In this document: one piece after another, positions 13,595 to 21,391 of the stretch
Position numbering within the stretch: the first letter of the stretch is position 1
Layout: each line of letters begins with the position of its first letter
IMG/VR virus record: IMGVR_UViG_3300023222_000089
Coordinates: 1 to 42,389 of that record
From: a virus
Direction: 5' to 3' (one strand)
Length of the DNA stretch: 42,389 nucleotides
The notes under the pieces: generated by a model
What the model was told of the DNA's origin: nothing
The model's input: only the letters and a program-made list of their open reading frames with translations
Databases searched by the model: none
Program-made: the position numbers and the translations under genes

Positions 13595-14344
13595 TTAGTT
13601 AATTAAATCTTGTTTTTTACGATAATTATCAATCCCACTCTGGATTTTTTCAAACGACTCGTTCGTTTCTTTTTTGTGGTTTTGTAAATCAACTAGCCCG
13701 GGCAAAGAGCTTGGCAACATATCAATCGGGCTAATTAAGTAATTCTTATGCTCCTCAAGCGCTTTAATTACGATATCATCCGACTGTGCAGATATGACGA
13801 AATCTATAACCTTTACCTTTTCAATAATGTATTTACTGTACGCTTCACTCTCTGTATCAAAAAGCCCTAGGTAAACTTGTTTTCCCAACCTCCCAACTGA
13901 AGCTTGAAACCTGCCGCTTTTATGAAGTGACACCCCTAGCTTGAACGCCCCTCTTGTGTTCTTATTTTCATGAAGTAACGAATTAACCAATGAACTTATA
14001 AATACACACGTATCAGCCGAGTAAATTTTATTACCTTTAACAACTAAATCTTTATCCAGCTCCTTACCTTTCCAATTCCTCTTAATCATCCACGATTTAA
14101 AGTTAGAGAAAACCAACCACTCTTCACATACAGAACAGCCAGTATATGAAGGTCTTGATTTTTGTATTTTTTCTGAGTAGCACCTACTCACCATACTCTT
14201 CCATGTTAGATAGAACGGGCAACACAACCTCTTACCATCAACCACTGGTTGTACAATGTAATCAGCATCATTTAATCCGACACCGCAAATCAGCCTTCTT
14301 TTACCTAACGATTTATTACTTGCTTTTATCTTTCTAAACGTCAT
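13595..14344 (-). CDS. Homing-endonuclease-like protein with AP2-type domain, 249 aa
   Basis: Residues about 45-85 (TWKSMVSRCYSEK, then YTGCSVCEEWLVFSNFKSW) and 92-116 (KELDKDLVVKGNKIYSADTC) follow the layout of phage HNH/AP2 endonuclease-type genes. Residues about 135-170 (LGVSLHKSGRFQASVG, then VYLGLFDTESEAYSKY) form an AP2-like DNA-binding module. A full HNH active site is not obvious. The last 45 residues (MLPSSLPGLVDLQNHKKE) copy the C-terminal tail of the neighbouring replication-type protein, which suggests insertion into or beside that gene. A related gene lies at 20417-21391. Confidence 0.75.
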   Translation of the reverse strand: MTFRKIKASNKSLGKRRLICGVGLNDADYIVQPVVDGKRLCCPFYLTWKSMVSRCYSEKIQKSRPSYTGCSVCEEWLVFSNFKSWMIKRNWKGKELDKDLVVKGNKIYSADTCVFISSLVNSLLHENKNTRGAFKLGVSLHKSGRFQASVGRLGKQVYLGLFDTESEAYSKYIIEKVKVIDFVISAQSDDIVIKALEEHKNYLISPIDMLPSSLPGLVDLQNHKKETNESFEKIQSGIDNYRKKQDLIN

Positions 14345-14356
14345 GTATCAAACCTC

Positions 14357-14932
14357 TTAGTGACCACTCTTCAATTGTATGTTTTTCACAATGGATTGTA
14401 AAGAACTACTTGTATTGTTGTTTTCTTTTTTGTGGGTTTTTAGCTCCACCAATCCAGGTAAGGAAGATGGGAGCATGCATTCATGTGTGTTTTCATAGGT
14501 TTGGTATATTTGCATGAACTCCTTTTTCTTCCACGTCATATCGGTTTCAGTCGAGCCACATAGTTGCTGCCATGAACCAAGAGCCTTTACTGATGCCATC
14601 GCTTGCTTATCGTCTAGCTTTAACGTTCCGTAGCTGCCAGTAGTTCTTATTTCACGTATTACTTGTGACCATGCTAATTCAGACTTGTCTTCCGTGCTAA
14701 TTTGACTTAACTGTAAGTGCCTAACAATATCAGCAGGCTTCGGGAAAAAAGAACCGTGGTTTGTATCCATTAAATGCTTAGATATCCCCTCGTTAACTTC
14801 TTTAATTGAGTAACTAGACAAGGCAGTAAAATATAATCTCATTAAAGGCTTTGTTACTTCTTTACTGTATGTTTCACATATACCAACCATAACTAATTCA
14901 AAATTATCTTTATCTGACTCAATCACTACCAA
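14357..14932 (-). CDS. Replication-type protein (DUF6475-like), 191 aa
   Basis: Helical segments with FFPKPADIVRHL (residues about 60-71), AWSQVIREIRTTGSYGTLKLDD (in pieces) and LGSWQQLCGSTETDMTWKKKEF follow the pattern of phage replication-module proteins annotated as DUF6475, which sit beside replication initiators. The C-terminal tail contains MLPSSLPGLVELKTHKKE, repeated in divergent form at the end of the next gene. Overlap with the upstream 137-residue gene is 7 bases. The biochemical function is not known; a helicase-loader-like role is one possibility. Confidence 0.65.
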   Translation of the reverse strand: MVVIESDKDNFELVMVGICETYSKEVTKPLMRLYFTALSSYSIKEVNEGISKHLMDTNHGSFFPKPADIVRHLQLSQISTEDKSELAWSQVIREIRTTGSYGTLKLDDKQAMASVKALGSWQQLCGSTETDMTWKKKEFMQIYQTYENTHECMLPSSLPGLVELKTHKKENNNTSSSLQSIVKNIQLKSGH

Positions 14933-18290: not shown

Positions 18291-18344
18291 TTTAATTCCT
18301 TGTTGTTAATAGTCAGTTCTAAATTATGTTGTATCTTAATGTAT

Positions 18345-19237
18345 AGTTAGCCTAAAGAGAGTTAAAAACTCAACTAAAGGCTTCATATTTACTCAGTACC
18401 AAACTAGAGGTTTGTAGAGCTTATATGCCATAGGCGCAACCTATGATTGACAACTTATTATCTAAACTAGCAGAGCTTGTCACAATCAATGTGAGTATCA
18501 GCCAAGGTTCCCCAATATAGCTTCTCGTATTGAATGCTGCCGCACTGTCTGATTGTACTAGTAACTCAGTATCAGATTTACATTATAACGCCCGAATCGG
18601 CTTTACAGCGCTATACAATGATTAACTGCTGAGTGATGAACACCTGACCAAAATTAATCAAAGGCGCAGTGTAGGTAAGTATATTTAAAGAAAGAGCCAG
18701 TAATCAGTGAGAGTGTCTAGAATCTCACCTTGTCCTGTATAACTGGCATTTCATCCCTGTGGGTGCGCCTAACATTAAACCTGGCTCTTTATCTAAATAT
18801 ACTAGTGATATAATCTGTATAAAAGAATGAGCTAGGAAAACAAGGGGTGGACTTGAACCAACCTTACCGTGCTTGTTTTTAATGGCATCCTTTATCGTTC
18901 TGAGTTGCAACTCTTAATAAATAAATTATAACCACTCTTGCGCAAGAACTAACCCACTCTTTTATACAGACTATATAAGATGCTTTTGAAAGGAATTGTG
19001 TCCACTTGCTTTGTCATGCTCAACGCCGTGACCAGTGGTAAGTTAAAGTTAATCTATAAAAACTACCTGTAACGATTAACTAATAGACACAAAAAAGGTT
19101 TTTACAACTGCGAACCTCGTTAGTAGAGGGTGAGAATTCGGTGAGAAAAACCCATCGAAGCCGCATGTGTAAAAACCCTGTACCAAACTCTCTTCTAAAG
19201 CAGCTACTAAACTGCTATCAATCAAACTTCGATCGAT
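18345..19237 (-). ncRNA. Large structured noncoding RNA candidate (GOLLD/ROOL-like size and setting)
   Basis: Between genes ending at 19256 and starting at 18290 there are about 965 bases without a credible gene, in a genome that otherwise leaves almost no gaps. It is packed with long-range complementary arms: 18679-18687 plus 18691-18700 with 18781-18790 plus 18794-18802 (9 + 10 bp, 3x3 internal loop); 19097-19106 plus 19109-19112 with 19162-19165 plus 19168-19177 (10 + 4 bp), enclosing two smaller hairpins (19115-19129, 19137-19159); 19047-19054 with 19074-19081 (8 bp); 18837-18844 with 18872-18879 (8 bp); 18619-18625 with 18654-18660 (7 bp); 18429-18434 with 18440-18445 (6 bp); 18551-area TCTGAT with ATCAGA; 19199-19203 with 19212-19216; 18349-18353 with 18378-18382. 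A promoter sits at its minus-strand upstream edge (19244-19272). The strand is inferred from that promoter, co-direction with neighbours and a T-loop motif. A 61-residue minus-strand ORF within it (18725-18910) is probably spurious. Confidence 0.7.
18837..18879 (-). other. tRNA T-arm-like minihelix inside the structured RNA
   Basis: On the minus strand an 8-bp stem (AAAACAAG with CTTGTTTT) is stacked, one base away, on a 5-bp arm (GGTTGG with CCACC, one bulged T) closing the 7-base loop TTCAAGT, which matches the tRNA T-loop consensus. No D-arm or anticodon arm can be found, so this is not a tRNA but an acceptor/T-arm mimic. Confidence 0.6.
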
Positions 19238-19243
19238 TTACTA

Positions 19244-19933: not shown

Positions 19934-20317
19934 CTATTTATTCTCCTGTTCTAACCTGTCAGCGTAGTCGTCTAGTGATTTAACACTGCAAGCATGCCAG
20001 TAGTTGCCGTGAATATCGTCAAAGCTAATAGAGCACTTAATTGTAGCTTCCCTTATGGCGCTTGCTTTAATGTCGTTTAAGCACTGCTCTGGTGAATTAT
20101 TTAATTGTTCACGAATAGATGATGCTCTTGCATCTAATTCAATATTTGGATGCACTTGATCGTCTAGTGCGTCAAATAGGATTTGGTCGTCGTTGAGTAA
20201 TTCACGATATAATTCAACCTGAGCTTTCAACTCTGCAATCTCTTGTTCTAAATCACAAGTGTTACAACTTCCTTTTTTACTGCCGTGTTCGCAGTCTCTT
20301 TTGTTTGGGTAATTCAT
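19934..20317 (-). CDS. Hypothetical coiled-coil protein, 127 aa
   Basis: Begins with a Cys-rich start (CEHGSKKGSCNTCDLEQEIA), then a coiled coil (ELKAQVELYRELLNDDQILF) and a C-terminal helix common to phage Ead/Ea22-like proteins (ADRLEQENK). Composite layouts like this are frequent in phage early regions; the function is not known. It overlaps the upstream 33-residue gene by 4 bases (ATGA). Confidence 0.65.
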   Translation of the reverse strand: MNYPNKRDCEHGSKKGSCNTCDLEQEIAELKAQVELYRELLNDDQILFDALDDQVHPNIELDARASSIREQLNNSPEQCLNDIKASAIREATIKCSISFDDIHGNYWHACSVKSLDDYADRLEQENK

Positions 20318-20416: not shown

Positions 20417-21391
20417 TTATTTACTCCCTTTAAAGTCAATACCTATACCATCAAGGTAATCAAGTGCGTATTCAATACCTACTTGTGTATCGTCGTTTAC
20501 GATATAATCATCATGACTGTTCGATAGGTTATTTCTAATGACGAATGCGCAAATTATTTTATCTTTTATTTTTTCAAAATCTGTTCTGGTGTCTAAATTT
20601 ATAACCCATGAATGAAGTGCACCGTGTATTTCTTCGCATATCAGTCCTTTTTTAAAGTAATCATCAGCAACATCCTTAACATGCCTCTCCTTGACTTCTT
20701 TGTATTTATTGAATGCCTCTTCCGGGGCCTTAAAGCTGCCAAGATACAATTGAGTTCCCTTTATGCTGATACTGGCCGCGTATGCATTTCTATCTTTGCA
20801 TACTCCTTGCGGACAATCTCCCTTATCTACCCTCTTACCGGTGAATAGATTATTTATCTCCCTAGGTACAAATCTACAGTTTTCTTTTGAATATATTTTA
20901 TTTCCTTCGTTTATTATATCTTTGTCTAAGTGCAATCCTTGTGCGTAGTTTTCATTAAACCACAAAGAGAAATTCTTTAGGTTAAGCCATTCATCACTTA
21001 CGGTGCAGCCTATATATGTAGGATTTTTTCGTTGGCACTTTTCAGAATAGCACCTTTCTAGCATTCCACTCCAAACAGAATAGCACTTGGTTTTCTTTCC
21101 GTTTTTATCTATGGTTTTTACTCCCTCCCTGCATCCAACCCCGTAAAGCTTGCTCTTCCTTTTTTTATTATCCTCTTGCGTATACACTGGCTTTGTTTCT
21201 TCTACTACTGGTCTTTCGTGTAAAGTCCATTTTTTACATGAGAAATTATTTACCTCTCCATTATTATCAACAACGTAAATATCACCCATCAATCTATCTG
21301 GTTTGGATAAAAGGTATTTTCTTTCTTCACCGTCAGTTAAAACGTAATTAATCTCTAACTCTATTTCTTCCCATTTAATTTCAATACTCAT
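20417..21391 (-). CDS. Homing-endonuclease-like domain embedded in a phage protein, 324 aa
   Basis: Residues about 85-235 match the neighbouring-type endonuclease gene at 13595: YSVWSGMLERCYSEK, then PTYIGCTVSDEWLNLKNFSL, LDKDIINEGNKIYSKENCRF, and an AP2-like part (AASISIKGTQLYLGSFKAPE). Residues 1-75 (DGEERKYLLSKPDRLMGDIY) and the last 75 (RTDFEKIKDKIICAFVIRNN, ending in YALDYLDGIGIDF) look like pieces of ordinary phage proteins, so the endonuclease module appears inserted in a host frame without breaking it. Whether cleavage activity survives cannot be told. Confidence 0.7.
   Translation of the reverse strand: MSIEIKWEEIELEINYVLTDGEERKYLLSKPDRLMGDIYVVDNNGEVNNFSCKKWTLHERPVVEETKPVYTQEDNKKRKSKLYGVGCREGVKTIDKNGKKTKCYSVWSGMLERCYSEKCQRKNPTYIGCTVSDEWLNLKNFSLWFNENYAQGLHLDKDIINEGNKIYSKENCRFVPREINNLFTGKRVDKGDCPQGVCKDRNAYAASISIKGTQLYLGSFKAPEEAFNKYKEVKERHVKDVADDYFKKGLICEEIHGALHSWVINLDTRTDFEKIKDKIICAFVIRNNLSNSHDDYIVNDDTQVGIEYALDYLDGIGIDFKGSK

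Follow-up and report, generated by a model that had tools for sequence, protein, structure and literature searches.

A putative undescribed class of large modular phage RNAs headed by a conserved pseudoknotted 5′ domain

The window, by which we mean the whole 42,389-nt stretch of DNA analysed here, comes from a P22-like phage; its head-closure protein has its nearest match in Pseudoalteromonas virus H6/1 (31% identity). We consider it rather probable that its block at positions 18345-19237 is a minus-strand RNA gene of about 890 nt with its own promoter, and that its product represents a class of large modular phage RNAs not described so far. These RNAs would act in trans and share as their head a conserved pseudoknotted 5′ domain of about 130 nt, here called D1. 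Because the D1 fold recurs in well over 100 environmental phages and no RNA family catalogue contains a match, the D1-headed RNAs look like a widespread class of phage RNA that has so far escaped description.

That this block is free of credible genes and strongly structured had been proposed from the letters of the DNA, and both claims are borne out: its largest ORF has 61 aa or less, and the minus-strand RNA of 18330-19240 folds at −264.6 kcal/mol, with a z of −7.8 against dinucleotide shuffles (−2.96 for the plus strand). The 3′ 736 nt taken alone (18345-19080) give z values of −4.7 on the minus and −1.0 on the plus strand, the former beyond the range of five control stretches of equal length elsewhere in the window (−1.5 to +0.7). 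Folding energy, the G-U wobbles that fit the minus strand and the U-run described below place the RNA on that strand, as the original prediction had preferred; pair 43-126 of D1, for instance, is UG in 16 of 35 members. We delimit the gene to 18345-19236 (minus), both ends of which have counterparts in relatives of the Pseudoalteromonas group, and the entire 890-nt block is likely to be one transcript. No terminator was found at the proposed 3′ end; transcription could stop at 19091, at the U-run.

The D1 domain

D1 occupies 19084-19215 of the minus strand and consists, from 5′ to 3′, of a hairpin (H1), a linker, the stem P2, inner helices, the partner strand of the H1 loop, the 3′ strand of P2 and a U-run. 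H1, which has 4-5 bp and an 8-nt loop across the family, is GCAG-UUUAGUAG-CUGC in the window (19200-19215), and the equivalent stem covaries in 35 relatives. Within its loop, UUAGUAG (19204-19210) pairs with CUACUAA (19120-19126) to form a 7-bp pseudoknot; this pairing, of 6-9 bp and in 24 sequence versions, is found in 70/70 non-redundant members, and scores 17.6 for their own pairs against 12.5 for swapped and 12.6 for shuffled ones. The strands of P2 lie at 19162-19177, with the invariant UUUACACAUGC, and at 19097-19112, with the invariant GCAGUUGUAA; the former is also backed by altered-pattern controls. P2 carries a 2×2 internal loop (CA/GU), encloses some 35-65 nt that hold further helices and the pseudoknot, and corresponds to the closed domain 19097-19177 recognised originally. 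Directly after P2 stands a terminator-like run of six U (19091-19096), with at least five U in 69/70 members. All four features that define the family, namely H1, the loop pseudoknot, P2 with UACACAUGC/GCAGUUGUA and the U-run, are found in the window.

Covariation was assessed on 35 aligned members, all from the other of two groups, so that the group to which the window belongs was left out. Over the full D1 structure 97.7% of the cells are paired and 18/31 pairs show two-sided change, a result reached by none of 500 shuffles, and slid controls are 36-51% paired. The homologues thus conserve helices with extensive compensatory change; a lack of covariation, named beforehand as grounds for rejecting the original prediction, was looked for and not observed. 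A second pseudoknot, GGGGUU/AACCCC, picked by eye in the Pseudoalteromonas group, was discarded because it conflicts with helix P4 and fails in the window.

The window's group, which comprises the window, three cultured phages and six metagenome loci, is set apart by an extra helix, P5, that joins the linker to the loop inside P2. Its 11 bp are formed in the window by GAGAGUUUGGU (19182-19192) and ACCGAAUUCUC (19132-19142), and in 8/8 of the members tabulated it lies in the same place with a different sequence, for example GACGUUGGGU/ACCUAACGUC in Pq0 and GAUAAUUGGU/ACCAAUUAUC in BS5. Both P5 and the 7-bp pseudoknot were missing from the original prediction, and the inner helix proposed there (19137-19159) is probably not real, since the relatives pair 19132-19142 with 19182-19192. 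Copies of AGTTTGGTAC lie close to each end of the RNA on the minus strand (about 19182-19192 and 18395-18420); possibly the 3′ copy competes with the P5 strand for one partner, through long-range or intermolecular pairing.

How widespread is this domain? BLASTN revealed a core of 100-130 nt common to the Pseudoalteromonas phages HS2, BS5 and Pq0 (best E 3e-8), which adjoins the major capsid gene in Pq0 and follows a divergent gene in HS2 and BS5. The pattern TTTACACATGC-N35-65-GCAGTTGTAA returned at least 119 stretches from IMG/VR, and the same architecture was recognised by eye in all but one (L106) of the 119 listed; D1 is present in at least 118 IMG/VR contigs besides the three cultured Pseudoalteromonas phages, and further scans added 12 stretches. 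The bases fixed by the pattern itself are no proof of conservation. When the invariant U next to ACACAUGC was exchanged in the pattern as a negative control, the 24 stretches retrieved included no true member, which shows that the matches of the original pattern are not due to chance and that this U is truly fixed. The covariance model R2, from which the window's group was excluded, gives the window 45.9 bits (E 6e-9) and also detects all members of its group, at 41.7-45.4 bits; chance matches reached at most 14.6 bits in the same search and 17.7 in a negative-control set. A model that includes the window's group scores the window at 73.5 bits, a value high by construction. A weak second D1-like match in the L039 record (G009:C1:4238-4298, 13.6 bits) is probably due to chance.

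Among 84,980 bacterial and archaeal species genomes the D1 pattern gave four stretches, all chance matches. Relatives sought through the neighbouring protein (19934-20317) were not found, and the major head protein led to short fragments only. D1 was also absent from the stretches examined of the closest cultured phages by protein, H6/1, MEP301 and AP1 (for AP1, 30 kb of 55.7 kb). Protein similarity links one locus of the other group most closely to Methylophilales phage MEP301 and a second locus to Acidovorax phage AP1 together with an uncultivated phage, and these two proteins suggest betaproteobacterial hosts for that group.

Promoter, 3′ modules and extent of the window's RNA

The sigma-70 type promoter TTGATA-17-GATAAT that had been placed at the upstream edge of the block is indeed there (19272-19244, minus; 10/12 matches). 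Promoter-like sites across the whole region number five, with 6.0 expected by chance, and the position in the window is credible because the promoters of the relatives stand at a fixed distance before D1. Of the members, 61% have a sigma-70-like promoter of at least 10/12 matches ahead of D1, versus 4% of mononucleotide-shuffled sequences, and in 48/70 members the −10 box ends 36-43 nt upstream of ACACATGC, placing the start site at H1. The window's promoter is about 30 nt further out than those of the relatives, and a small extra hairpin lies in between (19217-19238, minus), identified from the sequence and the predicted fold and found in none of the relatives; the RNA is expected to start near 19236.

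Beyond the U-run of D1, members continue with 200-700 nt of structured RNA. Downstream of D1 in the other group are 200-500 nt without clear genes, which fall into several families. Several architectures can be told apart among these 3′ modules, each supported by compensatory changes of its own: the type A module has 46 pairs, 94% paired, 26 of them with two-sided change, and in types B, C and D and three further module sets pairing amounts to 89-97% and 12-26 pairs show two-sided change, with slid controls mostly at 33-53% pairing. Support is weaker for the Pseudoalteromonas module set, at 80% pairing and 23 two-sided pairs against up to 12 such pairs in slid controls, because its alignment has few and gapped sequences. 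The next structured module begins 5-30 nt past the U-run, leaving no space for a promoter. In L007, L010, L021, L034, L038 and others, a helix-bounded domain of about 100 nt (GAGACTGGG...CCCAGTCTC) stands just after the U-run, between D1 and the next module; it is absent from some members. In L025, L033 and L065 the downstream RNAs are 92-95% identical and the genes that come next differ, suggesting a free-standing cassette.

In the window, the helix P6 starts right after the U-run and pairs GUGUC (19086-19090) with GACAC (18998-19002); 7/8 group members have it, L039 as GUAUC/GAUAC. At the other end, a hairpin (18349-18382) precedes UAACUAU. L019, L025 and L033 have counterparts of it that use different pairs and lead into AACUAU, and L002 and L003 show a similar hairpin at the 3′ edge of the RNA. 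The two ends of the block match the two ends of relatives of about 480 nt, and the window's RNA is longer by inserted domains, themselves with no known relative. In the predicted fold these include a long helix closing a domain (18955-18969 with 18815-18829) and the 19-bp arm with an internal loop that had been described before and is present at 18680-18700 with 18781-18801; neither has a homologue in which covariation could be sought. Because homologues of the 3′ 736 nt are confined to P6 and the 3′-end hairpin, structure in this part is argued from its folding energy.

Comparison with known RNA families

The block had been read as a member of the GOLLD or ROOL class or, alternatively, of an undescribed one, and it is the latter that the compensatory change in D1 supports. 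None of 4227 Rfam 15 families, among them group I and II introns, 6S RNA, riboswitches and ribozymes, reached its gathering cut-off in the window. At the same cut-offs nothing was found over the RNA in 20 relatives, which gave two ordinary tRNAs only, upstream in L027, and relaxed scans of the window and six relatives yielded chance-level matches. In a targeted search the best GOLLD (RF02032) score was 4.9 bits, at 14792-14849 on the plus strand and thus outside the block, with a cut-off of 150. For ROOL (RF03087), a search of 12 records with E allowed up to 10 found nothing, a weaker test in that control genomes gave no match either.

GOLLD is a homo-oligomeric RNA cage. The D1-headed RNAs resemble it as large structured noncoding RNAs of phages and prophages with variable parts and with tRNAs sometimes embedded or adjacent, and they resemble ROOL in being large, pseudoknotted, phage-borne and in some cases close to tRNAs. 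Might the block then be a diverged GOLLD or ROOL RNA that the Rfam models missed? Size, phage setting and the occasional tRNA in the RNA region (L039) are in favour of this, but neither model scores in the block or in many relatives (for ROOL with the silent controls just mentioned), the conserved elements differ from those of ROOL, and the universally conserved region of GOLLD is the 3′ one, with a variable 5′ region (PMC12286853), whereas here the constant part is the 5′ pseudoknot domain with its U-run and the 3′ part varies. We regard this origin as highly improbable.

The suggested link to tRNAs is real in L039, which has an intact tRNA-Arg inside its RNA region, and weak in the window, where neither ARAGORN nor Rfam detected a tRNA or tmRNA in the block. 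By eye, the sequence at 18838-18878 (minus), in the region comparable to that of the L039 tRNA, resembles an acceptor and T-arm minihelix (GGUUCAAGUCC), which may be a tRNA relic in view of the tRNA-Arg of L039. A tRNA-His and a tRNA-Pro lie directly upstream of D1 on the same strand in L027 (4498-4663).

Two other kinds of RNA invite comparison. HK022 put RNA and the EAR element of Bacilli bring about processive antitermination, acting in cis on RNA polymerase so that downstream terminators are suppressed. Like them, D1 is a promoter-proximal structured RNA, and EAR also has a pseudoknot; in contrast, the D1 family has a long structured and variable 3′ part (the comparison was made through the whole-Rfam scan). 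Bacterial small RNAs with intrinsic terminators share with D1 their own sigma-70 promoter and the framing by a stem and U-run; the stem of D1, however, has a pseudoknot and additional helices inside it and is followed by structured RNA. No published description of a D1-type RNA was found in the literature covered, which holds few subscription papers. On this comparative evidence the D1-headed RNA would represent a new RNA class, similar to GOLLD and ROOL in habit and with none of their tested defining features.

Possible modes of action

Sequence comparison shows the D1 fold, P5 as a helix locking the linker in the window's group, covarying 3′ modules, the position of the promoter and mobility between gene neighbourhoods. 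From these we infer a single long transcript, partial termination at the U-run and action in trans. Host RNA polymerase would read the window's RNA from the promoter at 19272-19244, and D1 would fold first at the 5′ end, hiding that end and stabilising the RNA. P2 and the U-run would stop some transcripts, giving a head-only RNA of roughly 145 nt, and read-through past the U-run would give the long form, which would act in trans as a structural RNA, in analogy with the self-standing large phage RNAs GOLLD and ROOL. D1, as the constant part, would contact something common, which could be host machinery or a further copy of D1, and variation between phages would reside in the exchangeable 3′ module. 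The likeliest contact site would be the invariant paired bases of P2 with their 2×2 internal loop.

The main rival is a cis-acting leader, in which D1 would be an attenuator or a put/EAR-like antiterminator gating read-through of the U-run into downstream genes, and the 3′ structured RNA would be leader sequence. A terminator-like P2 and U-run do follow the pseudoknot, beside a promoter, in nearly all members, and by crude mechanical ORF calls the first downstream ORF of at least 100 aa is on the same strand in 42/57 cases, the window's downstream gene being also co-directional with the RNA. Nevertheless, the downstream genes differ and 15/57 of these ORFs are on the opposite strand, which argues against a leader, for which the 200-500 nt of covarying 3′ structure would also be superfluous. 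We also looked for a conserved alternative pairing able to release D1, in the form of a terminator/antiterminator switch in which the H1 strand pairs downstream of the U-run, and found none: long pairings of this kind occur in some members (L051, L072, L068), but overall the members' own score is 16.1 versus 15.2 for swapped pairs. Orientation, 3′ covariation and the switch test thus count against a leader, which we hold to be unlikely although worth serious attention. Somewhat more doubtful still is that a short RNA of about 110-145 nt, from promoter to U-run, is the only product of D1, the rest being one or more separate RNAs. The promoter and U-run frame D1 neatly, but the lack of promoter space before the next module requires read-through, and P6 starts at the very edge of the U-run in 7/8 group members. 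The last alternative, that the block is decayed intergenic DNA whose hairpins arose by chance, has in its favour only the lack of homologues for part of the 3′ module; all the covariation and energy evidence speaks against it, it is already refuted for D1, and we assign it next to no probability overall.

The genes near D1 RNAs encode replication initiation proteins, RusA resolvases, nucleases and HNH endonucleases, and also head proteins. In the window, two HNH endonuclease genes of one family (phrog_953; 20417-21391 and 13595-14344, minus) flank the early region that contains the RNA.

To our knowledge, few large structured RNA classes are known in phages and their functions are open. The class proposed here spans more than 100 environmental phages and, by inference, at least two bacterial host groups. 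It is quite possible, if short of probable, that its members are built on a fixed handle, a constant head recognised in every host to which large RNA bodies are attached and swapped as cassettes, and that during infection they act in trans, as RNA machines or as assemblies made of RNA only. The three cultured Pseudoalteromonas phages that carry D1 make the class testable in the laboratory, and the combination of a constant head with exchangeable, independently structured bodies offers an unusually good comparative handle on the roles of large phage RNAs.
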